A stretch of 58,428 bases of DNA from Nitrospinota bacterium (GTDB taxonomy: Bacteria; JADFOP01), in the NCBI GenBank assembly GCA_022562795.1, contig JADFOP010000009.1:1-58428 (forward strand), read 5' to 3'. The number at the start of each line of letters is the position of its first letter. Within the stretch, counting starts at the first letter, position 1. Shown piece after piece: positions 186-13,450 of this stretch. The notes below the pieces were generated by a model. The model was not told the origin of the DNA and did not search any database. It worked only from the letters and a program-made list of their open reading frames with translations. Position numbers and translations under genes: made by a program.

Positions 186-1847
186 CTATCCCGGCGAGCC
201 TTCCTGAGCTTTTTCAATCTCGGCCGCCCGAAGCTCCACCCGCCGGATTTTGCCGCTGATGGTCTTGGGCAATTCTGCTACGAACTCGATGGCCCGTGGA
301 TATTTGTAGGGCGCCGTCGCCTGCCGCACGTGGTCCTGGAGGCTGAGAGCCAGCTCATCGGACGCCACGTAGCCCGGGGCCAAAATGACGAAAGCCTTGA
401 CGATATCCCCCCGCACCGGGTCAGGGGAGGCCACCACGGCGGACTCCGCCACCGCCGGATGCTCGATCAAGGCGCTCTCCACCTCGAAGGGGCCGATCCG
501 GTATCCCGAGGAAATGATGACGTCGTCGGCGCGGCCCACGAACCAGAAGTAACCGTCCTCGTCTTTATATGCCTTGTCCCCGGTGAGATACCAATCTCCA
601 TAGAAGGAGGCTTCCATGGCGTCGGGCGCCTTCCAGTACTCCCGGAAAAGCCCCACCGGTCTCTCGGGCTTGACCTTTACAGCGATCTGCCCCTCCTGGT
701 TCTCCGGCAGCTCATTGCCTTCGTCGTCAACGATAGCCACGTTGAACCCCGGCATGGGCTTGCCCATGGACCCCGCCCGCACCGGCAGGCACCGGAAGTT
801 GCCCACCAGCAGCACCGTCTCCGTTTGGCCGTAGCCGTCGTAGATGGTCAGGCCGGTGCCGTCCTCCCAGGTTTTCATCACCTCGGGGTTCAGCGGCTCT
901 CCCGCGCTGGTGCAGTGGCGCAGGTTGCTGAAATCGTACTTGGTCAAGTCCTCCAGCACCAGCATCCGGTAAGCGGTGGGAGGCGCACAAAAGGAAGTGA
1001 CACCGTAGCGTTCGAGAATCTGCAAGGTCAGGGCTGGGTCGAACCGGCCGCGGGCGTCGTGCTGCAACACCGTGGCGCCCTGGGTCCACTGGCCGAAGAG
1101 TTTTCCGTAGGCGGCCTTGGCCCAGCCCGTGTCAGACAGGGTCCACTGCAAGTCGGTGGCGTTGAGGTCCTGCCAGTACTTGGCGGTCAATACGTGGGCC
1201 AAGCCGTATGACGCATGGGTATGCAGCACCATCTTGGGGTAGCCCACGGTGCCCGATGTGAAGTAAATCAGCAAGGGGTCGTCGCTTCGGGTTTTTTCTC
1301 CCTCTTCCAGCCGGGAAGAGGCCCCCGACATCGATTCTTCATAGGAGGTCCAACCTCTCCTCGAGCCGCCTACCAATAGCAATCGCTTGAGGCCCGGGCA
1401 GTTGCCTGCCGCGTCGGCCAACTTGTCCGAGTTTTCCAGGTCGGTGATTGCCAATGTAGCTTCGGCCTCGTTGACCCGGTATTCGATGTCCCGGGCCGTG
1501 CATAGAGTGGTTGCCGGCATGGGCACCGCGCCCAGCTTCATCAGCCCCAGCATCGCCACGTACCATTGGGGTATCCTGGGCAGCATGACGAATGCCCGGT
1601 CTCCTTTGCCGACTCCCAGGCTTTTTAGAACGTTGGCAAAGCGGTCCGACTGGACCTTCAGGTCCCAAAAGGCGTGGTGCTGGGCAATTTCCCCGCTGGG
1701 ATCCAGGGAGATGAGCGCCAGCTTGGTGCGGTCTTCCGCCCACTTGTCCACCACGTCAAAGGCGAAGTTGAAGTACTCCGGCACCTCCAAGGAGCTGTTC
1801 CGGTAGGTCTCCTGGTAGTCCTGCATATTGGGGGACACGTCCCTCAT
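186..1847 (-). CDS. Acyl-CoA synthetase (AMP-forming), medium-chain/acetyl-CoA synthetase-like
   Basis: This 553-residue enzyme should activate a carboxylic acid with ATP and CoA to an acyl-CoA through an acyl-adenylate. It is a cytoplasmic ANL-superfamily enzyme. The ATP-binding motif YFTSGTVGYPK is near residue 195, the adenylate motif YGQTE near 335, the hinge region with LTGDKAYKDEDGYFWFVGR near 415-435, and the C-terminal lysine motif PKTISGKIRR near the end. Length and the N-terminal EYFNFAFDVVD segment fit the ACSM/acetyl-CoA synthetase group more than long-chain FadD. The frame is open to 1895, but the ATG at 1847 is preceded by GGGAGG at good spacing and matches family length. A TAGAAT box on the minus strand at 1888-1883, with only a weak -35, could be its promoter and would exclude the longer start. 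The substrate cannot be decided. Confidence 0.9.
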   Translation of the reverse strand: MRDVSPNMQDYQETYRNSSLEVPEYFNFAFDVVDKWAEDRTKLALISLDPSGEIAQHHAFWDLKVQSDRFANVLKSLGVGKGDRAFVMLPRIPQWYVAMLGLMKLGAVPMPATTLCTARDIEYRVNEAEATLAITDLENSDKLADAAGNCPGLKRLLLVGGSRRGWTSYEESMSGASSRLEEGEKTRSDDPLLIYFTSGTVGYPKMVLHTHASYGLAHVLTAKYWQDLNATDLQWTLSDTGWAKAAYGKLFGQWTQGATVLQHDARGRFDPALTLQILERYGVTSFCAPPTAYRMLVLEDLTKYDFSNLRHCTSAGEPLNPEVMKTWEDGTGLTIYDGYGQTETVLLVGNFRCLPVRAGSMGKPMPGFNVAIVDDEGNELPENQEGQIAVKVKPERPVGLFREYWKAPDAMEASFYGDWYLTGDKAYKDEDGYFWFVGRADDVIISSGYRIGPFEVESALIEHPAVAESAVVASPDPVRGDIVKAFVILAPGYVASDELALSLQDHVRQATAPYKYPRAIEFVAELPKTISGKIRRVELRAAEIEKAQEGSPG

Positions 1848-1988
1848 GGCTGCCTCCCACGCGGGTGTCTGGGAGTAAGGACATTCTACAACCAACCTCG
1901 GTCATGGAAAAGCTGCGCTGGCATTGTGACACCCGACGATTCCAAGACAACGCGTTATATGTGACAATCGGCGCCAACGGAACCGCCC

Positions 1989-2648
1989 ATGAATTACAAC
2001 ATCGAAAAACGGCGCCGCCGTTCGATTCGCCTGCCGGGATACGACTATGCCCAGCCCGGAGGCTATTTCGTGACCATCTGCACCCAGGGTCGAACGTGCC
2101 TCTTGGGGGAAGTGGCTGACGGAAAGGTGCATCTGAACGATGCCGGTCGGATAGTGGATGGCTGGTGGCTAGAGTTGGCTGGGAAGTTCTCGTCAGTACA
2201 GATGGACATCTACGTCGTAATGCCGAATCACTTCCACGGCATCCTCAACATCGTCGAGGCTCATTTTCAGAGAAACTACAACTCCGCCTCAGGCGGATTG
2301 ACTGGGGCGAGCCAAGAGGCCTTCTTAGGCCTGGCCAGGAAGGAGGACTCTGCGTCCAAGGCGAGCTACGGCTCGCGGCCGGCATCCTTCAATCTAGAAT
2401 TTGTACGAGTCCAAACACATGCTGACTCTGTCAGCCAGAGGCTCCTGGATAAGCTGAGGGAGCCGCGCTGGCTTGCCAGGGTGCCTTTGGCCTGGACCAA
2501 GGCGACCCCCCTGGAACGGGGAGATTTAATCGACCTCAACATAGCCCTCTTCTCCACCATGGGGACTCGCCCGAAATTCAAGGTCGTCAACATCTCCAGG
2601 AGCTTCCAGGAGGAGGCCTGGGATGTGGAGGCGGTCGAGGTGAATTGA
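1989..2648 (+). pseudogene. RAYT-type transposase N-terminus fused in frame to phage tail-tip C-terminus (chimeric remnant)
   Basis: The 219-codon frame has two unrelated halves. Residues 1-95 look like a REP-associated tyrosine transposase (Y1/HUH, TnpA_REP): RLPGYDYAQPGGYFVTIC, then VVMPNHFHGIL with the metal-binding HxH pair. The usual downstream part, with the tyrosine helix and a W-Q-R-N-Y-Y-E-H stretch, is missing; only FQRNYN near residue 93 may be a trace of it after an internal deletion. From about residue 137 the sequence (FVRVQTHADSVSQRLLDKL, then ERGDLIDLN and KFKVVNISRSF) resembles the C-terminal end of phage tail-tip/baseplate proteins, where such a segment precedes a G-D-V-V/I motif. 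A REP-like palindrome sits at the junction (2283-2297). I read this as a decayed transposase inserted in, or recombined into, a tail gene. An active fused protein is unlikely because the transposase lacks its nucleophile region. Confidence 0.6.
2283..2297. repeat. REP-like palindrome, copy 1
   Basis: TCCGCCT-C-AGGCGGA, a perfect 7-bp inverted repeat around one base. It lies inside the chimeric frame, at the point where transposase similarity ends. Short palindromes of this kind are the usual substrates of RAYT transposases. Confidence 0.65.
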
Positions 2649-2678
2649 TGGATTGGATGGGCAACAGACCATGTAGCG

Positions 2679-2695
2679 ATCCGCCTCAGGCGGAT
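2679..2695. repeat. REP-like palindrome, copy 2
   Basis: ATCCGCCT-C-AGGCGGAT, an 8-bp perfect inverted repeat with the same core as copy 1. It is intergenic, 31 bases after the chimeric frame ends. Confidence 0.65.
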
Positions 2696-2733
2696 GGCTG
2701 TCCGTAAATAAGGAGGATTAACCCATGGCAATT

Positions 2734-2760
2734 GTCCGCCTAAGGCGGACCTAAGGCGGA
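2734..2760. repeat. REP-like palindrome, copy 3, plus an adjacent half copy
   Basis: GTCCGCCT-A-AGGCGGAC (2734-2750) is an 8-bp perfect inverted repeat. It is followed directly by CTAAGGCGGA (2751-2760), which repeats its right half. It interrupts the duplicated gene start. Confidence 0.65.
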
Positions 2761-2778
2761 ACCTGAAACTCTACGCCA

Positions 2779-2793
2779 TCCGCCTCGAGCGGA
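2779..2793. repeat. REP-like palindrome, copy 4 (degenerate)
   Basis: TCCGCCTCGAGCGGA keeps the outer arms of the other copies, with a changed centre. It replaces a second stretch of the duplicated gene start. Confidence 0.45.
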
Positions 2794-2818
2794 GAGGACG
2801 ACAAAGGAGGAGTAACCC

Positions 2819-3568
2819 ATGGCGATAGCGGCATCGGACCTGAAATTCTACGCAGCAGCAAATATGCCCGAGGACGACACGTCCACCGTCGGGGGCGCGA
2901 TAGACGCGCTCCGCCAAGTCATCTTCACCCAGCTCGCCGCCAACGACGACATCGAGGTCGTCTCCAGCTCCGCCTCGGACACGACCCAGGTGGTGACCGT
3001 CTACGGAAGGGATGCGGGCGGCGCCTACGTCTCGGCCACCGCGACCCTGAACGGCACGACCGCCGTTGTGCTGAGCCCGGCGACGACTTTCGAGCGGGTG
3101 CTCCGGGTCGAGATGAGCGCGACCGCCGTCGGGACCGTCACCGTCCGAAGAAGCCCCGGCGGGGCCACCATCTACACCATCCCCATCGGCGAGCGGGGAG
3201 TCTGGTCCCTATTCTCCAAGTCGGCGAGCGACCCGTCGGCCACCAAGACCCGCTACATGAAGGTGTTCTGTAAGAACACTCATGGGAGCCTAACGCTAAC
3301 CGCTGCGAAAATTGATCTCACCGCCGACCCCGACAGCCGCATCAAGTTCGGCCTGGCGGCGACGAAGGACGACTCGGCCACGGCGGCGAACAGGCTAACG
3401 GCCCCGGGCGGCGTCACCTTCTTCGACGACAACAACGCTCAAAACGTGCCGGGGACAACGCTGGAAGCGGCCGCAGCCATCGGCATCTGGGCGGAGCAGG
3501 CCCTTACAACGGGCGACGCGCCCCACAGAACCACCTTCACCCTCAAGGCCTCAGGGGAGTCGGTTTAA
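2819..3568 (+). CDS. Phage-like structural protein of unknown function
   Basis: A 249-residue protein that I do not recognise as a named family. ATG 2819 follows AGGAGG at eight bases. The composition is Thr/Ala/Ser/Asp-rich with few charged clusters and no signal peptide or membrane segment. The middle part (about residues 40-150) alternates short hydrophobic stretches, as in a beta-sandwich: VVTVYGRDAGG, VLRVEMSATAVGTVTVRR, VWSLFSKSAS. The C-terminal half has FFDDNNAQNVPGT and ends in a strand-like TTFTLKASG. It sits between a tail-tip remnant and a LamG adhesin-like gene on the same strand, so a virion or tail component is the best guess. This rests on context and fold impression, not on a motif. 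Confidence 0.7.
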   Translation: MAIAASDLKFYAAANMPEDDTSTVGGAIDALRQVIFTQLAANDDIEVVSSSASDTTQVVTVYGRDAGGAYVSATATLNGTTAVVLSPATTFERVLRVEMSATAVGTVTVRRSPGGATIYTIPIGERGVWSLFSKSASDPSATKTRYMKVFCKNTHGSLTLTAAKIDLTADPDSRIKFGLAATKDDSATAANRLTAPGGVTFFDDNNAQNVPGTTLEAAAAIGIWAEQALTTGDAPHRTTFTLKASGESV

Positions 3569-3596
3569 TGGGGATGTCGACGCGGGCCATTTTTTA

Positions 3597-3689
3597 TGTA
3601 GGGACAGGGCTCGTCCCTGTCCGTGGACCGAGGGCGCTAAAGGCCGGACACCCACAAGGCCGACCAAGGGTCGCTTGCAACTCCCTACA
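3597..3689. repeat. Small MITE-like element with 8-bp terminal inverted repeats
   Basis: The 93-bp segment starts TGTAGGGA and ends TCCCTACA, an exact inverted pair. Inside, GGACAGGG (3602-3609) pairs with CCCTGTCC (3615-3622) over a 5-base loop. It fills most of the gap between two phage-like genes. TGTAGGG-type inverted repeats are common non-coding mobile repeats in GC-rich bacteria. No second copy is visible in this window. Confidence 0.45.
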
Positions 3690-3714
3690 GTAAGGCGGGG
3701 GAGCGGATTCACTA

Positions 3715-4119
3715 ATGCCTATTCCTTCGGGGCTGAAAGCCAAGATTGACGGGCGGTTGAGCCTTATGCTCACGCACCTTGAGGCGCGTCAGGAGGCTTA
3801 TATCGCCGCGCACGGTCGTTATTTCCAAGGCATTAGAACCCACGCCGTCTTGCCCAAGGGTGAAATTGATGAGGAGACGCCGCCCAATTCAAGGGTGAAA
3901 CCCACCGACCAGGCCGAGGATTGGGACGATGTGGGAATTCTGTTGCCTGCCAAGATGCCCTTCGCCCTCGCCATAGATGTTTACGATGGGCCGAGAGGCG
4001 TTGGCTGGTCTATTAGGGTCGAGATCGAGCACCTCGGCCGCGCTTTCGCTAGGCAGATAGGCTTCGGCCCCGACGCGGCGGGTTATACCTACAGCTGGCA
4101 GGACATGACAGATGATTAG
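3715..4119 (+). CDS. Phage-island hypothetical protein (134 aa)
   Basis: Not recognised as a known family. The protein starts with a basic, helical N-terminus (SGLKAKIDGRLSLMLTHLEARQEAYIAAHGRYFQG). An acidic-polar middle follows, with a proline/threonine segment near residues 54-66, then a strand-rich C-terminal half (FALAIDVYDGPRGVGWSIRV) that ends in WQDMTDD. There is no signal peptide or membrane helix. The ribosome site is a modest GGGGGAGCGG 8 bases before the ATG. It is followed after eleven bases by the LamG gene, whose AGGAG overlaps this gene's stop, so the two are probably one transcript. A small virion or tail-assembly protein is possible from context only. Confidence 0.7.
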   Translation: MPIPSGLKAKIDGRLSLMLTHLEARQEAYIAAHGRYFQGIRTHAVLPKGEIDEETPPNSRVKPTDQAEDWDDVGILLPAKMPFALAIDVYDGPRGVGWSIRVEIEHLGRAFARQIGFGPDAAGYTYSWQDMTDD

Positions 4120-4130
4120 GAGACGGCCTA

Positions 4131-4820
4131 ATGGCCATTGATGACCTAACAAACCTCATCTCTCATTGGCCCCTCAACGAGGTGAGCGGCACCCGCGTAG
4201 ATAGCCACGGCTCGAATGACCTAGATGATGTCAACACCGTAACACAGGCCGCTGGAAAGATAGGTAATGCGGCTGAGTTTGTCAATGATAATGACGAACG
4301 TCTTAGGCACGATGATAATGCCGATTTGTCTGGCGCAGATGTCGATTGGACTTTTGCAATTTGGCTTTATTTTGACTCCAAAACAGCGAGGTGGCCCGCC
4401 ATTGGTAAATATCTTTCGACGGGAAACAACCGAGAATATAGGATTCGTTATCTTACCGCGACGGATAGATTGTCATGGGAGGTATCCTCTGATGGAACAT
4501 CAGGCACGGTTACCATTGTTGAAGCCGACAATTTTGGGAGCCCTCCACTTAACACATGGATATTCGTTGTTGTCTGGCATGACGCAACCGCAAACGAGAT
4601 AGGGATACAAGTTAACAATGGAACCCCTGATACGGCTGCGCATACCGGGGGCATACACAATGGTACTGCCAAGTTTGCGATAGGCACAAGCCATGGAAAC
4701 TCCGGCGGGGACAGTTGGGATGGCCGTCTTGACTCAGCGAGCTTATGGAAGGGTCGCCTCTTGACCTCAGCAGAGCGAACCGCCCTCTGGAACGGCGGGG
4801 CGGGGCTGGATTATCCTTTT
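4131..4820 (+). CDS. LamG/concanavalin A-like domain, 5' part of a frameshifted adhesin-like protein
   Basis: ATG 4131 follows TAGGAGACGG. The first 230 residues form one LamG-type jelly-roll domain: LISHWPLNEVSGTRVDSHG at the start, KIGNAAEFVND, DWTFAIWLYF, WIFVVVWHDA, and the closing SLWKGRLLTSAERTALWNG with GGAGLDYPF. These domains bind carbohydrate or protein ligands and are common in phage tail fibres and surface proteins. In this frame the sequence then turns into a proline/serine/arginine-rich shadow that stops at 5357. The real continuation, with perfect 14-residue repeats, is in the -1 frame from about 4808 on. I therefore end the supported part near the TTTT run at 4817-4820. It is either a true mutation, a sequencing error, or recoding. 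Confidence 0.75.
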
Positions 4821-5851
4821 ACGACCACGACCCCGTCTCCAACTCGGTCCTCGTCCCCTACGAAGTTCTCGCAGGCCTGGCCGAGAGCCCGGTCATTTTC
4901 CACGAGGCCATGGCGGGCTTCTCCGCCGCCGCCGCCTCCCCTTATGAAGGTATCTTTGGATTGGCCCGATCCGCCGTCGTGCCGATGGAGGCCAAAAATG
5001 GTTTGGCCCAACCCGTCTCCGTTCCGATGGAATCCTTGGAGGGGGTCAATCAGCCTGGGAACGTCGCCTTTGAATCCCTTAAGGCGGCCGACAGCTCAGC
5101 CCCCCACTCATATGAATCGCTCTTCGCTCTCTCCGCCTCCGCCCCGCCCCCATATGAGTCCCTCCTCGGTCTCGCTGCCGCCGGCCTCATGCCTTACGAG
5201 GCCCATGGGACGGTGGCTCAAGCCGTCCAGGCATTCTGGGAAGCCATTGGCCAGGTCTCCTCGATCAAGGTCATCCCGTGGGAGTCAACTTCCGGCCTGG
5301 TCGCTGCTGCCATCGTCCCCTGGGAAGCGCCGGCAGGCGTCGCCGCAGTTGGGATAATTTCCTGGGAGGCTCTTGCCCGCCTCACAGCCGATGGAGCGGT
5401 CTCCTGGGAGACTCTCCAATCTGTTCTGACGTCGGGCCTTGTCCCCTGGGAAGGTCTCGTCGTCGTCGTCAAGGCCGACTCGCCCGCCTACGAGGCCATG
5501 GCGGGCCTTACCTCTACCGGGGGGATCCCCTGGGAGGCTCTTGCCCGCCTCGCAGCCGATGGGGCGGCCTTCTGGGAGGCTCTCGTGCCGGTTATGACGT
5601 CGACCCTTGTCCCCTGGGAAGGTCTCGTCGTCGCCGTCAATGCCAGCTCGCCCGCCTACGAGGCCATGGCGGGCCTTACTTCTCCGGGGGCGGTCCCCTG
5701 GGAGGCTCTTGCTATAGGCGAGCGGCCGATAATCTCTCAAACGCTTCGTCTCATCGTCCTCGTGTCAGATTCGTTGAGCGTCGCCGAGGCGGTCTCACGT
5801 GACCTCGAGGTGACCCAAGCGGTCTCGGGGAACATGGAGATTCCATCATGA
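4817..5851 (+). CDS. 14-residue tandem-repeat region, 3' part of the frameshifted LamG protein
   Basis: This is the continuation of the LamG protein in the -1 frame. A separate start at 4745 in this frame is unlikely, because it would translate LamG-coding DNA out of phase. From the Glu codon at 4862 to that at 5702 there are exactly twenty 14-residue units. Each ends in Glu, usually after Pro and an aromatic or hydrophobic residue (PWE, PYE, PME, AFE), and usually opens with x-L-x-G-L/V. The last eight units form two 56-residue blocks that are close copies. The remaining ~48 residues (LRLIVLVSDSLSVAEAV) are non-repeated and end at 5851. No signal peptide or anchor is seen. A fibrous spacer or stalk carrying the LamG head is a reasonable inference. 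Confidence 0.7.
   Translation, partial: FYDHDPVSNSVLVPYEVLAGLAESPVIFHEAMAGFSAAAASPYEGIFGLARSAVVPMEAKNGLAQPVSVPMESLEGVNQPGNVAFESLKAADSSAPHSYESLFALSASAPPPYESLLGLAAAGLMPYEAHGTVAQAVQAFWEAIGQVSSIKVIPWESTSGLVAAAIVPWEAPAGVAAVGIISWEALARLTADGAVSWETLQSVLTSGLVPWEGLVVVVKADSPAYEAMAGLTSTGGIPWEALARLAADGAAFWEALVPVMTSTLVPWEGLVVAVNASSPAYEAMAGLTSPGAVPWEALAIGERPIISQTLRLIVLVSDSLSVAEAVSRDLEVTQAVSGNMEIPS
4865..5704 (+). repeat. Twenty tandem 42-bp units encoding 14-residue repeats
   Basis: Glu codons recur every 42 bp from 4862 to 5702 without a single insertion or deletion. Units 13-16 (5369-5536) and 17-20 (5537-5704) form a 168-bp higher-order duplication with strong DNA identity, for example around CCCTGGGAAGGTCTCGTCG. 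Older units have diverged in DNA while keeping the protein pattern, which points to selection on the protein. Confidence 0.85.
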
Positions 5852-6177
5852 GCCCATCCCAAGCAATTGTGTTAGGAGATATTGGAGTCGAGATCGGAGG
5901 GCCCGTCGAGTGGCATACCCGAAGTGGGGTCGAAAAGCGGGACCTCAACATCTACACGGTGACCATCGAGTACCAGAAGCCCGCCGACCAGGCGGCCGGG
6001 ACGGTCCGTGAGTGGACCGTGAACCTCATCACCGGCTCCTCTAACCACGAGGCCTACCACATCACCGCTTCCGGCGATATCGACGCGAAGCAACGCTGGC
6101 GATACCGGGTCAGGGTCCGGTTCGGCGCCACCCTCGATCTGCGCTCCCCCTGGCGAAGCTTCGAGGTGATTGATTAG
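5848..6177 (+). CDS. Phage-island hypothetical protein (109 aa)
   Basis: The start ATG overlaps the stop of the repeat protein (ATGA), so the two are translationally coupled. The 109 residues have no signal peptide or membrane helix. The pattern is strand-rich: VTIEYQKPADQAAG, REWTVNLITG, then RWRYRVRVRFGATLDLRSPW and a closing FEVID. It resembles a small fibronectin-III-like or tail-accessory beta domain, but I cannot assign a family. It is the last gene of the island and ends 13 bases before the convergent AsmA-like gene. Confidence 0.7.
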   Translation: MSPSQAIVLGDIGVEIGGPVEWHTRSGVEKRDLNIYTVTIEYQKPADQAAGTVREWTVNLITGSSNHEAYHITASGDIDAKQRWRYRVRVRFGATLDLRSPWRSFEVID

Positions 6178-6190
6178 GTGGGCGGGTTAG

Positions 6191-9100
6191 TTATTGGAGG
6201 ATCTTTAAGAGGTCCTCGAGGCCGCCCGGCAGGGGGGGTATTTGAGAACCGGGCTGGCTTGGCTGGGTGGGCTGCTGGCCCGGCTGGCCGGGAGGTGGCT
6301 GAGGCGAGCCGCCGCCTAGCACTTCACCCAGGATGCCCCCAATTCCCCCTCCCTTCCCCTTAAAGAGCTTTTGCGACGCCAATCGAAGGCCGGCGTCCAG
6401 AAGGTACCGCTCGTCGGGCCGGCACTTCGGGCGGCGGCCGCCCCGGAAGGAGCCTCTGCAGGTGAAGGGGAAGGTCATCCGGCCCGCCGAGTCGGTCAGC
6501 ACCGGCTTGGCGTCGGCGCCGAGGCACTGGTCGGTGAGCTCGGGGCTGAAGACGGCCCAGATGTCGCGGAAATCGATCTCCTGGCGCGGCAGGTCGATCA
6601 CGCCGGGATTGGCGCCCGTCACGATGTCGATATCGTCGGAGTCGAGCATCAGGGTCGAAGGGGCAACGGCGGCGACACCCCGGTTGATGGTAACGGGCAT
6701 GGTCAGGATCCGGAAGGGGGTCGTCTCCTGACGGGTGAATTGGGTTTTGCAGGTGCCGAGCTTCTGGAAGCCGGGAATAAAACCGGCGAGCTTAAAGATA
6801 GGCATATTATCGAGCAGATCCCGCACGATGGCCATGTTGATTTGGCCGTCGGTCACGGTCGCTTGTCCCCGGCCCGACAGCGTCGGCAGGAGCGAGGCGG
6901 CCGTGAGGCCTCGGCCCCTGATGTCGAGGGTCGCCTGAAGGCGCCCCCAGATGGTATTGGGAAGCTTGGCGTGAGCCGTCAACAATTTGTTAACATCCAC
7001 CCCGACGAGCGATGATCGGAAGCTGAACCGCGCCGAGGCGGGGTCGAGGTCTACCACCGCAGAGCCGTCGTATCTGCCGCCGTGAAGACCGAAGGTTAAA
7101 TTGTTGAGGATGAAGACGCCTTGACGGAGAGAGGTTTTGGCCTGAAGGTTCTCTAAAAGCAGATCATTGTATACGGCCTGCCGCACCCGCACGTCTCCCG
7201 AGGCTGAGACCTTCTTGAACCAACTTAGCCAGTCGTACGGGCGCTCCTGGGCTTTCACAAGCAGAATTCGGGCGGGGGGTGGTTGGCCGTAAGGTTCGGT
7301 GAGGTGCGTCCGGCTACTGGGGGCCTTTTTCTTCTCCGCGGCCTTCCACTGGTGGAGAACGAGTCGCGGAGCATCCAGATTAAAGGAGACCTGGGGGGCG
7401 TCAAACCCTCGTACGGTGGCTGAGAGCGAAAGGATGCTGTCTCCGTAAGCCACCGTGAACTTCTTGAGTATCGCCTCCTGGCCCTTTAGCTCGATCGTCC
7501 CCGTCATATTCTCCAAAGGGGCGGCGAGTTGTGGCAAGCGGGCCTTCAGGTCTCTGACCTCTACGATACCCTTTGCCTGGGCGTCCTTCAGCCGCGCCGT
7601 GTCGCCCTGGACGTGGATGTCCACGCTGACGGTGCCTGCCAGGCCGTAGCCTTTCAGGAAGGGGAGGCTCTCAGTGAGCCGCTCGAGCCTAATGGGGGAG
7701 GAGGCCACCGTAAGGCTCCCCCGAGGCTGGTCGAGGTCGGCCACATGGGCCGCCCCCCGTATCCAGTCCTTCCCGAGGATGGCTTCGAAGGTCTTCAGGG
7801 TGAAAGATTTTCCGGTGTGTCGGCCCTCGACTGCGACGCGGGCGGGCTGACCCAAAGGCTTAATAATCCAGTCGGGGTGGTGGAGGCCCACCTTGGTGAG
7901 GTCAACCACCGCCCGGCCGGATAGCTTCGGGAAAGAACCCGAAAAGGAAACCGATGCATCGGCCTTCCCGTTTATCTTGAATCCAGGCGGCAAGGCGGCC
8001 CGTAGGGCGGGGAGGGTCTCAAGCACCGTCTCTAGCGGTCCGATGCCGGATGCCGTGATATCCGACTGGGTGAAAACCAGGGTCTCGGGCTTGGAAACCC
8101 GTCCCTTGACCCCTACGGCCAGGCTCACCTGGCCGGTTAGCTTCTTGCCCGCCGGAACCCATCGGGCCAGGTCCACTCGGTTGGTGCGAAGGGTGAGATC
8201 GATAACCGGGTCTTTCAGGTTCTTGACCGAGCCCCGGCCGCTTGCCTCCAGGTCTTTGATCGCCAGGGAGACCTGCTCGATTGTCACATCGCCGCCTCGA
8301 TAGCGGCCACTGAATGTCAGGTTGGCCCGCTCCCCCCTGGGTTTCTTCAGCAGCTCACCGTACCGAAAGTCGCCTTCCTTGAGGTCTACTTTCCCGGTGA
8401 TATCGAAGGACTGCATTGTGCCTTGGATGGTCACCTCAGCCGTCGCGGTTCCCGCCAGGGCGAGGTCTTTCGGCCAGTAAGACTTGAGCGGCGGGGCGAG
8501 GGTAAATATCTTCTCAACAGGCCCCACCTTCGAGAGGACGAGTCGTCCGGAGACCCGGCTCTTGGCAGGCTCCGCCGTTGGGCCGGCCACCTCTCCGGTG
8601 AAGGAGAACTGGCCGTGGAGAGGGTTTCCCTTGAGGGCGGGCAGGACCCGCTCCCAGCCTGCCAGGCTCACGGTGTTCGTCGCGAGCTTCAAATCGACGA
8701 TGGGTTGTGTGAGGTTGGTTACGCTGCCGCTCGCGTCGAGCTTCAAGGTGTGAAGGTCGAGATGGGTTTTTCGTAGGGTCAGGCGTCGGCCGTCGTAGCG
8801 GCCGTCGAACCGCAGCGCGCCCGCCACCCCGGCCTCCTTGTCAAGAAGACCCTTCCAGGCGAGCTTAGTTCGTTTGGCGTCCACGAAGCCACGGGCTGTG
8901 AAGTCCGAAAGGGTTCCCCCGACGTTGACTTCAATGGCCAAGGGGCCCGAGAGCGTCATACCGGGAGGCAGCCGGTCGGGAAGTGACGGGTCGAGCTTCG
9001 CTAGATCTTCAAGTGAGGCCCCGTCGGTTGCCACCTTGATGTCGATCTCTGGTTCGGTACTGGCCTTGGCAACGGCGCCCGAGGCGGCGATGGTGGAGTT

Positions 9101-10111
9101 GCCAATGGTGACGCGGAAGCGCTCGACCTTGATGGTGTCGGCCTTAAAGTCCACCTGGATGGACTGGTCAACCGATAGCGTCAAGGGCTTGGGGGGCCGG
9201 TAATCGTAAGCCGGTGCAGTGAAATCCAAATCCACAAATTCCACCGATCCATCCACCGCCAGCCGCTCTGGATTCTCCTGGGTGAACGTTAGATTGGAGG
9301 TGAGCGACCCGGCGAGGTTGGTAACTGGAAGAAAATCACGCACGTAGGGCTGGAGAGGAGCGAGCTCAAGCCCCGTCGAGCGAACCGACACGGTGATGGG
9401 AATCTTGCCTGGCTGAGGGTTTGTCCCTATGGGCCCCACCGTGCCTTTGAGTCGGAACGGCTGGCGGGTCTTACGAACGAGTGTGGCGGCCACATCGAAA
9501 TCTATGGGGCGTTCCAGGGAGACGTCCCGGAGGCGGACCTCAAGGTCCTCAAACCTGTGGGTAAGGGTTGACCCTGGCATGGCGTGTTGATCGATGATGG
9601 TCAGCGTGCCGTCCTGAATGTCTAGGCGCGAGATCGATAGGCCCGCAATAGAGCTCGGAGCACTCGGGGGTGGAGGAGTTTCGCCCGGTGGGGGGAGGGC
9701 TTTGAGCCTGCCGGGGGAAGGGGCCCCGGTGAGATCGGAGAAGTTGGTGCGGCCGTCCTTGCTTATCGTCAGGAGGACGGTTGGCCTTCGTAGGGTGAGC
9801 TTGCTGACTTCAACACGCCTGGAAAGGAGGGGCAATAGCTTGAGGCTGACATCGATTCCCTCTATCGTAACCGCCGGTGCTCCACCGGAACGCGCACGGT
9901 CGGCAATCTCCACGTTGGCCAGCCGCACCCGGGGCCCTCCCATAAGACTGAGCCGTATCTCTCCGAGCTTCACCTTGCGGTGGAGCGTTTTCTCGAGGGT
10001 TTCAGCAATTTGGCCCCGGTAGGTGTTGATGTCGATAAACTTAGGGAGAACCACCAGGATGGCCAGGATGACGACGCCTACGGCGGCGGCTATCAGGAGA
10101 GGTCGGCGCAT
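6191..10111 (-). CDS. AsmA-family inner-membrane-anchored periplasmic protein (1306 aa)
   Basis: A very long envelope protein. Residues 5-24 form one N-terminal membrane anchor followed by FIDINTYRGQIAETLEKTL and VKLGEIRLSLMGGPRVRLANVEI, the classic AsmA N-terminus. The body is a long series of beta-rich segments with repeated patterns such as GSVTNLTQPIVDLKLATNTV and GSVKNLKDPVIDLTLRTNRV. The AsmA_2-like C-terminal domain (GRGQATVTDGQINMA) falls near residues 1060-1190. The protein ends in a Pro/Gln/Gly-rich tail. AsmA-like proteins such as TamB and YhdP bridge the periplasm and are linked to phospholipid transport to the outer membrane; that role here is inference. The ATG at 10111 has a GAGG-containing site and lies 12 bases after gshB, so the two are one operon. 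Confidence 0.85.
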   Translation of the reverse strand: MRRPLLIAAAVGVVILAILVVLPKFIDINTYRGQIAETLEKTLHRKVKLGEIRLSLMGGPRVRLANVEIADRARSGGAPAVTIEGIDVSLKLLPLLSRRVEVSKLTLRRPTVLLTISKDGRTNFSDLTGAPSPGRLKALPPPGETPPPPSAPSSIAGLSISRLDIQDGTLTIIDQHAMPGSTLTHRFEDLEVRLRDVSLERPIDFDVAATLVRKTRQPFRLKGTVGPIGTNPQPGKIPITVSVRSTGLELAPLQPYVRDFLPVTNLAGSLTSNLTFTQENPERLAVDGSVEFVDLDFTAPAYDYRPPKPLTLSVDQSIQVDFKADTIKVERFRVTIGNSTIAASGAVAKASTEPEIDIKVATDGASLEDLAKLDPSLPDRLPPGMTLSGPLAIEVNVGGTLSDFTARGFVDAKRTKLAWKGLLDKEAGVAGALRFDGRYDGRRLTLRKTHLDLHTLKLDASGSVTNLTQPIVDLKLATNTVSLAGWERVLPALKGNPLHGQFSFTGEVAGPTAEPAKSRVSGRLVLSKVGPVEKIFTLAPPLKSYWPKDLALAGTATAEVTIQGTMQSFDITGKVDLKEGDFRYGELLKKPRGERANLTFSGRYRGGDVTIEQVSLAIKDLEASGRGSVKNLKDPVIDLTLRTNRVDLARWVPAGKKLTGQVSLAVGVKGRVSKPETLVFTQSDITASGIGPLETVLETLPALRAALPPGFKINGKADASVSFSGSFPKLSGRAVVDLTKVGLHHPDWIIKPLGQPARVAVEGRHTGKSFTLKTFEAILGKDWIRGAAHVADLDQPRGSLTVASSPIRLERLTESLPFLKGYGLAGTVSVDIHVQGDTARLKDAQAKGIVEVRDLKARLPQLAAPLENMTGTIELKGQEAILKKFTVAYGDSILSLSATVRGFDAPQVSFNLDAPRLVLHQWKAAEKKKAPSSRTHLTEPYGQPPPARILLVKAQERPYDWLSWFKKVSASGDVRVRQAVYNDLLLENLQAKTSLRQGVFILNNLTFGLHGGRYDGSAVVDLDPASARFSFRSSLVGVDVNKLLTAHAKLPNTIWGRLQATLDIRGRGLTAASLLPTLSGRGQATVTDGQINMAIVRDLLDNMPIFKLAGFIPGFQKLGTCKTQFTRQETTPFRILTMPVTINRGVAAVAPSTLMLDSDDIDIVTGANPGVIDLPRQEIDFRDIWAVFSPELTDQCLGADAKPVLTDSAGRMTFPFTCRGSFRGGRRPKCRPDERYLLDAGLRLASQKLFKGKGGGIGGILGEVLGGGSPQPPPGQPGQQPTQPSQPGSQIPPLPGGLEDLLKILQ

Positions 10112-11207: not shown

Positions 11208-11236
11208 TTGACCGGCCCCGGCTGCTTCTGTATGAT
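11208..11236 (+). promoter_or_regulatory. Sigma-70-like promoter for gshA
   Basis: TTGACC (11208-11213), exactly 17 bases, TATGAT (11231-11236). The predicted start near 11243 leaves a short leader that contains AAGGAGA before the GTG start at 11270. Confidence 0.7.
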
Positions 11237-11269
11237 GCTGGCTTACCTTCAAAGGAGACCCGTCGCTCT

Positions 11270-12622
11270 GTGAAGCCCGAAGATATCCCTATCCAAAGCG
11301 CAGATGAGTTGGTTCTCGAATTCACTTCGGGGTGCAAGCCATCGACGGAGTGGCTCACCGGATTGGAGCTTGAGAAGGTTGGTGTCGATCCAGCCACCGC
11401 CGAGGCTATGCCCTTCGGCGGCCCCCGGGGCATTGAAGCCGCCCTCACCTCCATGGCCGAGAAGCACGGCTGGGAGCCCACGGTGGAAGACGGGAGAGTG
11501 GTTGGACTCACGCGGGACGGTTCGGCCATTACCTTGGAGCCCGGCGGGCAGCACGAGTTCGCTAGCCCTCCCTCCCCCGACCTCCATACAATGGAGGCCG
11601 AGCTCGCCCGGCACCAGGAGGAGATCCGCCAGGTGGCCGATCACCTGGGGGTGGCTTTCCTGGGGATCGGCATGCAACCCGTAACCCCCCTGGAGGCCAT
11701 TGAGTGGACTCCCAAAGGTCGATACGCCATCATGGCGCCCTACCTGGGGTCCAAGGGCACCTTGGCCCACGCCATGATGAAGCAGACCACCGCCATCCAA
11801 TGCACCTTCGACTACTCCGACGAGGCCGATTGCTTCTCCAAGATGAGGCTCGCCATGGGGCTCTCTCCCATCGCCACGGCGCTCTTCGCCCACTCCTCAA
11901 TCACCGGGGGGTATATCAACGGCTTCCGGAGCTTTCGTGGCCACATTTGGGTCCATACTGACCCGGATCGCTGCGGGATTGTCAGAGGGGTGTTTGACGA
12001 GGGCTTCGGATTTGAAGCCTACACGGAGTGGTGTTTGGCGGTCCCGGCGATGTTCATCCTCCGCGAGGGTCGGTGGATCGCCCTGGGTGGGATGCCCTTC
12101 GGCCGGTTTCTGGCCGAGGGGTTCGAAGGCCATCGCGCCACCATGGCCGATTGGCAGCTCCACCTGACTACCATCTTCACCGAAGCCCGCTTGAAGACGT
12201 TCATCGAGGTCAGGTGCGCCGATAGCCTGAGGCCCGACGACGTCCTCGTGGTCCCGGCCTTCTGGAAAGGCCTCCTCTACGACGCCGAGGCGCGGGCCGC
12301 CGCCTGGGAGCTAATAGCGGGGTGGCCTTTCGAGGAGCGCCTGGTGCTCTGGCATACCGCTCCCGGCTACGGCCTGGCCACCCCTACGCCCGACGGCCGG
12401 ACCATCTTCGACCTCGCTCGCGACCTTCTCTCCTTGAGTTTGGATGGCCTGACACGTCAGGCCGTCCTTGACCCCCAGGGCCGGGACGAAACGATCTACC
12501 TCGAGACCTTTGCCGACCGGTTGCTTGAGACGGGCCGATGCCCGGCTGATGAGCTCTCCGCCCTCTGGGTTGGCGAATGGGCCGGAGACCCTGCCCGGCT
12601 CGTCGAGTGGTGCAGGTATTAA
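11270..12622 (+). CDS. gshA: Glutamate-cysteine ligase, GCS2/plant-type
   Basis: The first and usually limiting step of glutathione synthesis: ATP-dependent coupling of glutamate and cysteine. The 450-residue length and motifs fit the plant/proteobacterial GCS2 type rather than E. coli GshA: PFGGPRGIEAALTSM near residues 48-62, LEPGGQHEFASPP near 88-100, LGIGMQPVTP near 130, MMKQTTAIQCTFDYSDE near 166-182, and IEVRCADSLRPDD near 312-324. The start is GTG at 11270, with AGGAGA about eleven bases upstream; no better in-frame start is seen nearby. It diverges from gshB. EgtA-type ligases of actinobacteria belong to the same superfamily, but the gshB neighbour argues for true glutathione synthesis. 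Confidence 0.9.
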   Translation: MKPEDIPIQSADELVLEFTSGCKPSTEWLTGLELEKVGVDPATAEAMPFGGPRGIEAALTSMAEKHGWEPTVEDGRVVGLTRDGSAITLEPGGQHEFASPPSPDLHTMEAELARHQEEIRQVADHLGVAFLGIGMQPVTPLEAIEWTPKGRYAIMAPYLGSKGTLAHAMMKQTTAIQCTFDYSDEADCFSKMRLAMGLSPIATALFAHSSITGGYINGFRSFRGHIWVHTDPDRCGIVRGVFDEGFGFEAYTEWCLAVPAMFILREGRWIALGGMPFGRFLAEGFEGHRATMADWQLHLTTIFTEARLKTFIEVRCADSLRPDDVLVVPAFWKGLLYDAEARAAAWELIAGWPFEERLVLWHTAPGYGLATPTPDGRTIFDLARDLLSLSLDGLTRQAVLDPQGRDETIYLETFADRLLETGRCPADELSALWVGEWAGDPARLVEWCRY

Positions 12623-12718
12623 GACAGTCCAGTAAAGGGTAGGCATGGGACATTCACCAGAGACAGTTCGATCGTTGACCCCCTCCCACTTCCCGAATTC
12701 AAGACACCCCGATTAGCC

Positions 12719-12747
12719 TTGACAGCCCAAGGAGGCTCTGTTAGAGT
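12719..12747 (+). promoter_or_regulatory. Promoter upstream of the nuo operon or of a leader RNA
   Basis: A perfect TTGACA (12719-12724), 17 bases, then TAGAGT (12742-12747). The predicted start is near 12754. It is the only strong promoter in the 318-bp gap between gshA and nuoE. Confidence 0.6.
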
Positions 12748-12753
12748 GCCGTT

Positions 12754-12889
12754 TTTGAAATGGCGGCGTGTCGGCGCCCTGTACGCTGTTATCAGACATG
12801 GCGCACGCCTAGACGCTGTCGGCTCTATGTACACCAACGGTGGGGAAGCCGAAGCTTTGGGGTCGCTTTCTTCGGCTAGCCCTTTTTTT
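12754..12889 (+). ncRNA. Candidate small RNA or attenuated leader before nuoE
   Basis: The gap 12623-12940 holds no convincing gene. The predicted transcript from the TTGACA promoter can fold. GGCGTG (12765-12770) pairs with CACGCC (12804-12809), and inside it CGCC (12775-12778) pairs with GGCG (12800-12803). The segment closes with an 8-bp terminator-like stem and a run of seven T. It could be a stand-alone RNA of about 135 nucleotides or a leader that attenuates nuo expression. The family is not recognised. Confidence 0.35.
12847..12889 (+). terminator. Intrinsic terminator-like hairpin 52 bases before nuoE
   Basis: AGCCGAAG (12847-12854) pairs perfectly with CTTCGGCT (12870-12877) over a 15-base loop, followed after five bases by TTTTTTT (12883-12889). 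It lies between the promoter and nuoE. The large loop and five-base gap make it weaker than a classic terminator. Confidence 0.45.
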
Positions 12890-12940
12890 CAACCCTCTCT
12901 TGTTCCCCTTTTCACATGTCAATAGCCGGAGAACTCCCTT

Positions 12941-13450
12941 GTGCTTGATGCCTCCTTCCTCAAGAACCTGAGGACGATAGAGGCCCGCTATCCTGACCGG
13001 CGAAGCGCCATCCTTCCGGCCCTCTACCTGCTCCAGGAACGGGATGGCTACATCACCCCCGAGGGAATGCAGGCCTTGGCCGTCCACTTCGACATCTCTC
13101 CCATGGCCGTCCACGAGGTGGGCAGCTTCTACACCATGCTTAATTTCAGGCCTGTGGGGCGCCATCATATTCAAGTATGTAGGACGCTGCCATGCAAGCT
13201 CCGAGGGTCCGATCAGGTGACCTCCTGCATCGCTAATAAGCTAGGGATTTCGGTCGGTGATGTGACGCCCGACGGGACCTTCTCTCTCTTGACGGTCGAG
13301 TGCCTTGGCAGCTGCGACACGGCCCCCATGATGCAGGTAAACGACCTCTATTATGAAAACCTCACCCGGGCGAGGATCGACGCCGTCCTCGATGAGCTCA
13401 AGGACGAGGACGCGTCCTACACCAAGCGGCCCGGCCCCGACGGGTTCTAG
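12941..13450 (+). CDS. nuoE: NADH-quinone oxidoreductase subunit E (2Fe-2S)
   Basis: Thioredoxin-like peripheral subunit of complex I carrying cluster N1a; it works with NuoF in the NADH-dehydrogenase arm on the cytoplasmic side. The 169 residues contain the N-terminal helical domain (ALYLLQERDGYITPEGM, VHEVGSFYTMLNF). The four cluster ligands are the Cys pair of VCRTLPCKLRG near residues 79-84 and the Cys pair of ECLGSCDTAP near 120-124. The start is GTG 12941 after CCGGAGA. The nuoF start follows three bases after its stop. It leads the nuoEFJKLMN cluster. Confidence 0.93.
   Translation: MLDASFLKNLRTIEARYPDRRSAILPALYLLQERDGYITPEGMQALAVHFDISPMAVHEVGSFYTMLNFRPVGRHHIQVCRTLPCKLRGSDQVTSCIANKLGISVGDVTPDGTFSLLTVECLGSCDTAPMMQVNDLYYENLTRARIDAVLDELKDEDASYTKRPGPDGF

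Follow-up and report, generated by a model that had tools for sequence, protein, structure and literature searches.

A 14-residue repeat array beside a LamG domain in a Nitrospinota contig: a candidate phage stalk module

Introduction

What is the long, strictly periodic array that lies behind a LamG domain in a contig of a Nitrospinota bacterium, where did it come from, and could it have formed a stalk? The window analysed here is the whole stretch of 58,428 nucleotides. A preliminary description, made from the letters and their open reading frames, held that a phage-like gene carries twenty perfect 14-residue repeats behind a LamG domain, that the array is growing by duplication, that no described fibre family was known to have this period, and that a regular solenoid or fibrous stalk presenting the LamG head would be a testable idea; it proposed a profile search and structure prediction as checks. 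The features on which the following argument rests are collected in Table 1.

Table 1. Features of the repeat locus and its flanks in the window
Feature	Position	Strand	Basis or remark
AMP-binding enzyme	186-1895	-	flank of phage cluster
REP-associated tyrosine transposase-like ORF	1989-2648		NF047646, weak, below cut-off; only N-terminal part matches; directly upstream of phage cluster
Gene A, 249-aa phage protein, partner of repeat gene	2819..3568	+	homologues beside 14-residue repeat genes; phrog_13135, E=0.0012
Gene B, 134-aa ORF	3715..4119	+	ORF; no family match, no relative found
LamG / concanavalin A-like domain	4131..4821	+	PF13385 Laminin_G_3, E=1e-13; frame mod 3 = 0
Thr/Pro/Ser-rich linker, meeting point of LamG and repeat frames	4822..4852	+	frame translations
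Repeat array	4853..5704	+	20 x 14-residue units, P-[WY]-E-[AS]-L-x-G-[LV]-x6; frame mod 3 = 2
Higher-order tandem duplication	5361..5712	+	Tandem Repeats Finder: 168 bp (56 residues) x 2.1 copies, 88% matches
Array protein C-terminal tail, non-repeat	5705..5851	+	translation; no match in related loci
Gene E, 109 aa	5848..6177	+	overlaps end of repeat ORF
AsmA-family gene	6191-10111	-	flank of phage cluster, other side

The repeat array

The array is exactly periodic. Twenty-one Glu codons stand at 42-bp spacing from 4862 to 5702, in one frame and with no indel, and define 20 complete units whose consensus, counted from Glu, is E-A-L-A-G-L-...-V-P-W (in short form P-[WY]-E-A-L-x-G-[LV]). Residue identity within the array is 0.31 at lag 14 and 0.41 at lag 56, as against a maximum of 0.16 at any lag over 500 shuffles. 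Position by position, E is conserved in 20/20 units, L/M/I at position 3 in 16/20, G at position 5 in 10/20, L/V at position 6 in 17/20, P at position 13 in 11/20, and W/Y at position 14 in 16/20. The period and register first described are therefore borne out, and "perfect" is apt for the period but not for the sequence, adjacent units being on average only 31% identical. The Glu residues are encoded by both codons (12 GAG and 9 GAA) and are therefore maintained at the protein level, and the array ORF runs without a stop over 850 bp.

Growth of the 3′ end by duplication is likewise confirmed: the final eight units consist of two blocks of 168 bp, 87-88% identical (154/177 nt). Between these blocks we count 15 nonsynonymous and 2 synonymous codon changes, which is the record of a duplication with no sign of purifying selection afterwards. 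The changes between the two 56-residue blocks could reflect neutral drift in a remnant, or else diversification.

The LamG domain and the frame break

The LamG domain itself is secure, with a PF13385 score of 52.1 bits against a curated cut-off of 27.6; that the repeats follow it in a single gene is true only in part, as domain and array occupy different frames. The LamG frame (mod 3 = 0) is followed from 4131, the repeats are in mod 3 = 2, and the relation between the two frames is -1. LamG ends with YPF at about 4821, and the frames meet within some 11 bases (4822-4832); by codon usage, frame 0 scores slightly better as far as about 4830, and from there on frame 2 is clearly preferred. The repeat-frame ORF extends from 4745 to 5851, its first 30 or so codons being only a shadow of the LamG frame, and it contains no start codon between 4745 and 4910, whereas the LamG frame does not reach its first stop until 5355-5357, deep inside the array. 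The frame-2 motif that precedes the first unit, PVSNSVLVPYE, resembles the array starts of three related loci: PVSNALGFEFE (L020), PVSASLDIPVE (L017), and PVSQTASVNLE (L067).

Because the frames meet in about 11 bases with no intervening start codon, LamG and the repeats most likely represent a single ancestral gene, lectin plus repeats, in which the frame has been broken, either by a true indel or by an assembly error. With LamG and repeats out of register, the full fusion protein is therefore probably not produced from the Nitrospinota copy, unless the shift is an assembly error. The G+C content of LamG (0.51) and of the array (0.65) is consistent with the joining of two parts by recombination.

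Two other accounts of the frames deserve consideration. i) LamG and the array could be two separate, overlapping genes. In the cassette of a Pyrinomonadaceae metagenome-assembled genome (L035) each has a gene of its own, and a frame-2 ATG is indeed present at 4745. This ATG, however, sits within the LamG coding sequence and lacks a good ribosome-binding site, the coding frames abut almost directly, the frame-2 linker motif begins upstream of any later start, and the LamG frame remains open far into the array; we therefore regard two genes as improbable. ii) Programmed -1 ribosomal shifts are known from phage tail genes, and one such shift could link LamG to the array and place the lectin head on a minor fraction of the protein. 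The frames do differ by -1, and each is intact on its own side of the junction, but no canonical in-frame X XXY YYZ heptamer could be seen when the sequence of 4810-4860 was read by eye, none of the relatives shows the arrangement, and the locus is a remnant; a programmed shift is accordingly the least credible of the accounts considered here. We retain the single ancestral gene with a broken frame.

A phage remnant between bacterial genes

Gene A, gene B, the LamG/array gene, and gene E form a cluster (2819-6177) of four phage genes between bacterial genes, and the remaining contig consists of bacterial housekeeping genes, as judged by reading of the ORFs. No HK97-type capsid gene was found in the genome, and no gp15-type (phrog_227) match was found among the window genes, the T4 gp15 tail terminator core having been tested. 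Gene E matches the TipJ-related model NF040662 at 0.0078, far below the cut-off. Its position is that of the small beta-type or connector gene which follows the array in related phages (PF10651 and phrog_442 in L017 and L020); homology of gene E to these BppU-type neighbours found no support with hhalign, and the likeness shown is one of position. We conclude that the locus is a prophage fragment, a four-gene phage remnant stranded in a bacterial chromosome, and the phage origin first proposed is thus supported.

We wish to stress that the history of this copy is a separate matter from that of the repeat family. We would give even odds that the Nitrospinota copy is a remnant in decay that now serves no function, and that the 56-residue duplication arose in it by neutral slippage; this would be compatible with a stalk, and would apply to this copy and not to the family at large. 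The isolation of just four phage genes among host genes, the lack of a detected HK97-type capsid gene in the genome, the frame break, and the excess of nonsynonymous changes, which makes purifying selection since the duplication not apparent, all argue for decay. Against it, apart from the frame break all ORFs are intact, the whole length of the array is free of stops, and Glu is retained at 21/21 places with mixed codons.

Relatives of the array

No curated family for the repeat could be found in Pfam (E<=0.001) or NCBIfam. Among the PHROGs, family 6079 matches the window array with E=9.7e-8, but over model positions 78-172 of 605 only; the repeat segment alone aligns, and the full-length architecture is absent from the window. 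Its name, "tail protein", is an annotation and not a test. PHROG 6079 also matches the arrays of L035 (2.6e-21), L018 (3.9e-12), and L076, but not those of L080, L082, and L083; a further phrog_6079 match in another genome (L004) was discarded as antisense to a YadA-like repeat.

With native sequences, we were unable to find any cultured-phage relative of the window proteins by tblastn against 50,697 phage records, or any match in exact-peptide scans of IMG/VR. Relatives were reached through a degenerate codon pattern, P-x-E-x-hydrophobic-x-G-hydrophobic at period 14, which retrieved 15 viral contigs from IMG/VR, all with arrays and 11 of them distinct. A second codon pattern added three more (L055, L059, and L060); four of its other matches (L054, L056, L057, and L058) were set aside as not belonging to the P-x-E repeat family. 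All searches taken together, 28 viral contigs carry 14-residue arrays, about 23 of them distinct. Over 84,980 bacterial and archaeal genomes the degenerate pattern gave 22 matches, of which a single one is a genuine array, that of the Pyrinomonadaceae genome L035 mentioned above, and the other 21 are chance repeats with stops or of differing composition. The L035 array protein, 797 aa long, is the closest relative of the window array (phmmer 9e-75).

Twenty 8-unit windows drawn from the family aligned without any gap, with E nearly invariant, and the window array shares the marks of the P-x-E family: the ungapped 14-residue register, the invariant E, the motif P-x-E-x-L-x-G-[LIV], and a gene A within a few kb. 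The number of units across the family ranges from about 5 to 41 by the counting rule applied. Arrays are fused to differing N-terminal domains in L022, L060, L023, L026, and L078 (the last domain having no Pfam family match), and other arrays stand alone. In the literature searched, no 14-residue repeat of phages is described. These comparisons suggest that the repeat family is widespread in phages and has gone unnamed. The codon patterns thus recovered viral relatives in the same 14-residue register, and the remark that no described fibre family of this period is known holds for Pfam and NCBIfam, but has to be qualified in that the repeat is common in viral contigs and is partly covered by PHROG 6079.

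Linkage to gene A

Homologues of gene A adjoin the array in 11 loci (5e-65 to 6e-21): L035, L018, L020, L022, L060, L055, L023, L026, L017, L030, and L027. A search that starts from gene A is a stronger test of this linkage than one that starts from the repeat. When IMG/VR was scanned with gene A alone, 21 loci were found, 16 of them with an array; among contigs found in this way and not earlier picked via the repeat, 10/15 have an array, or 9/14 if L064, a copy of L020, is left out, and several of the array-negative loci are truncated by the end of the contig. Consensus-free analysis of the A-bearing loci placed the best lag at 14 or 28 in 35 of 47 periodic ORFs, a count that includes shadow frames and duplicate contigs; periodic ORFs of unlike sequence were seen in L082 (ADENLxGLAATLAS type), in L092, and in gp15 of Vibrio phage KVP40. 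Gene A is present in 2/386 bacterial genomes searched, the Nitrospinota genome counted.

Two of the A-bearing loci show further periodic proteins. In L092, a distantly related bacterial genome, an A homologue adjoins a 14-residue-repeat protein, the pair lying at 2005-3348 and 1450-1947 (both minus strand); the repeats, DIRxxVYxxVxSNT, come after an apparent beta-helix segment and have the same period but another consensus. The A-bearing phage L073 encodes a second periodic protein (11232-12977) with a period of 22 and an identity of 0.45.

The place of the cassette in the phage genome varies. In L022 and L020 it lies between the major head protein, which it follows, and connector or tail genes, and in L020 it is succeeded by a head-tail adaptor, a tail protein, and the tape measure; the cassettes of L055 and L023 come after the tape measure (and that of L055 after Dit as well); and in L035 the separate LamG gene lies between A and the array. 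Given these varied positions and the separate LamG of L035, the cassette has the look of a module that can move about among the structural genes.

Structure and possible role

AlphaFold2 monomer models built on 20-row alignments have a mean pLDDT of 49 for the window array and 51 for L035. In part of the window-array model, short strands recur at 7-residue steps, which is a hint of two strands per unit and not evidence for a solenoid; Foldseek with this low-confidence model returned nothing at E<0.001. Profile matches in the PDB were to de novo designed repeat proteins and to STAT6, and were judged composition-driven; a heptad coiled coil was rejected on account of the proline at position 13 and the glycines at 5 and 10. 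Structure prediction, then, gave only low-confidence monomers with short strands, and on these models a regular solenoid or fibre is unproven.

We favour, at a probability of roughly 0.55, the reading that the array is a modular virion stalk for the display of a lectin head, and that the locus preserves a fragment of a tailed-phage structural cassette. The main gene would once have encoded a virion surface adhesin composed of an N-terminal LamG head, concanavalin A-like and presumably glycan-binding; a Thr/Pro linker; and a stalk made up of twenty units, each of 14 residues, which belongs to a repeat family that is usually encoded beside a gene A homologue. The array would be a modular spacer, built probably from short beta strands at two per unit, and duplication of whole units would change its length; protein A would help to fix it to the particle, either close to the head-tail junction or on the tail, and the binding would be done by whichever variable domain is fused to it. 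A stalk that presents the LamG head, as first suggested, fits the relatives whose arrays are fused to varied N-terminal domains, but sits less easily with the window itself, in which no single open frame covers both LamG and repeats. Also against it, no in-frame LamG-plus-array fusion turned up in other loci, L035 having the two as separate genes.

The array might instead be a flexible, multivalent tether and not a rigid stalk, which we consider rather unlikely, if less so than the two-gene account of the frames. Each unit would then be a short linear motif (the invariant P-x-E) that docks on a repeating subunit, such as protein A or a lattice protein of the capsid or tail, and the number of units would set the number of copies engaged. 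Few positions are conserved per unit, E being nearly invariant while the others drift; gene A, the partner, shows tight linkage; the monomer models are poor; and unit number varies widely, up to about 41, all of which would suit a tether. Yet the lack of indels in 20 units, and the dominance of period 14/28 despite a changed consensus, point to a geometric constraint that a flexible tether would not need, and the AlphaFold2 strands every 7 residues in one model also weigh against it. On balance we prefer the stalk; in the most general form, the account with the best support is that of a modular stalk or tether on the virion which carries exchangeable binding domains and has protein A as its partner.

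Comparison with known systems

The link to a laboratory phage runs through gene A. Its weak match to phrog_13135 is its sole PHROG match; the homology to the phrog_13135/KVP40.0353 family extends over the C-terminal 156 residues or so, and hhalign scores the alignment of gene A against KVP40.0353 at 95.6%, with E=1.3e-8. KVP40.0353, itself a full-length phrog_13135 member, is the next gene after gp15, the tail sheath stabilizer or tail terminator, whose core shares homology with the T4 tail terminator of solved structure (3j2m) and whose 14-periodic C-terminal repeats are matched by PHROG 6079 (4.7e-8). By these sequence comparisons the pair of array and A occurs in T4-like Vibrio phages as well, with the array apparently anchored to the neck. 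In KVP40 it is gp15, and not a lectin, that carries the repeats, and their consensus is D-x-D-W-x-x-R where the window has P-W-E-A-L. Because direct comparison of the KVP40 repeats with the window profile is not significant, we do not claim common descent, but only a shared period and a shared neighbour. In Vibrio phage 1.081.O (L007, 3101-3294) the DNA repeats that encode the gp15 array bear the annotation of CRISPR spacers, by what looks like an error, since the 42-bp repeat codes for protein.

We put forward, tentatively and as something that may well prove wrong, the broader proposal that very different tailed phages share a two-gene display module consisting of protein A and an array of strict 14-residue period; that the period is conserved while the sequence may change beyond recognition; that the fusion partner of the array may be a lectin, another N-terminal domain, or gp15; and that the period matches a fixed structural repeat, for example one turn of a solenoid or one copy of protein A. 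For many structural genes of phages no function is known, and the rule of a gene A with a period-14 protein nearby marks the same module in many phages that are uncultured as well as in the classic phage KVP40, so that experiments become feasible on a laboratory phage. Should the arrays be stalks or tethers of adjustable length, they would be a common phage means of mounting exchangeable binding domains on the particle, and protein design could also draw on their regularity.

Four other known systems invite comparison: i) the YadA-like or Hep_Hag head repeats (PF05658) are also 14-residue repeats of fibrous surface adhesins, but the window array has no Pfam match and a different consensus; ii) Casjensviridae tail proteins (Aeromonas phages BUCT552 and AVP3) end in 14-residue tandem units P-Y-N-L-R-x-x-x-x-A-E-L-L-x, and the AVP3 array is matched by L035, but these arrays stand on a large phrog_1101 tail protein, with no A homologue in the flanks examined; iii) Oceanospirillum phage vB_OliS_GJ44 (L084, 5890-7530) joins 14-residue TPADAVPVQSSAQA repeats to an annotated discoidin (lectin-type) domain in a gene that follows the tape measure gene, but the consensus is T-P-A-D-A-x-P-x-Q, the discoidin domain has the array on its N-terminal side, and the flank examined has no A homologue; and iv) the PHROG 6079 model matches the arrays of the window, L035, L018, L076, and KVP40 gp15, but only about 95/605 of its positions are matched in the window, and the library gives no repeat, structure, or mechanism. 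The 14-residue repeat itself is absent from Pfam, NCBIfam, and the papers found; tandem-repeat surface fibres of phages are known as a kind, and part of the present family had already been clustered, unexplained, in PHROGs.
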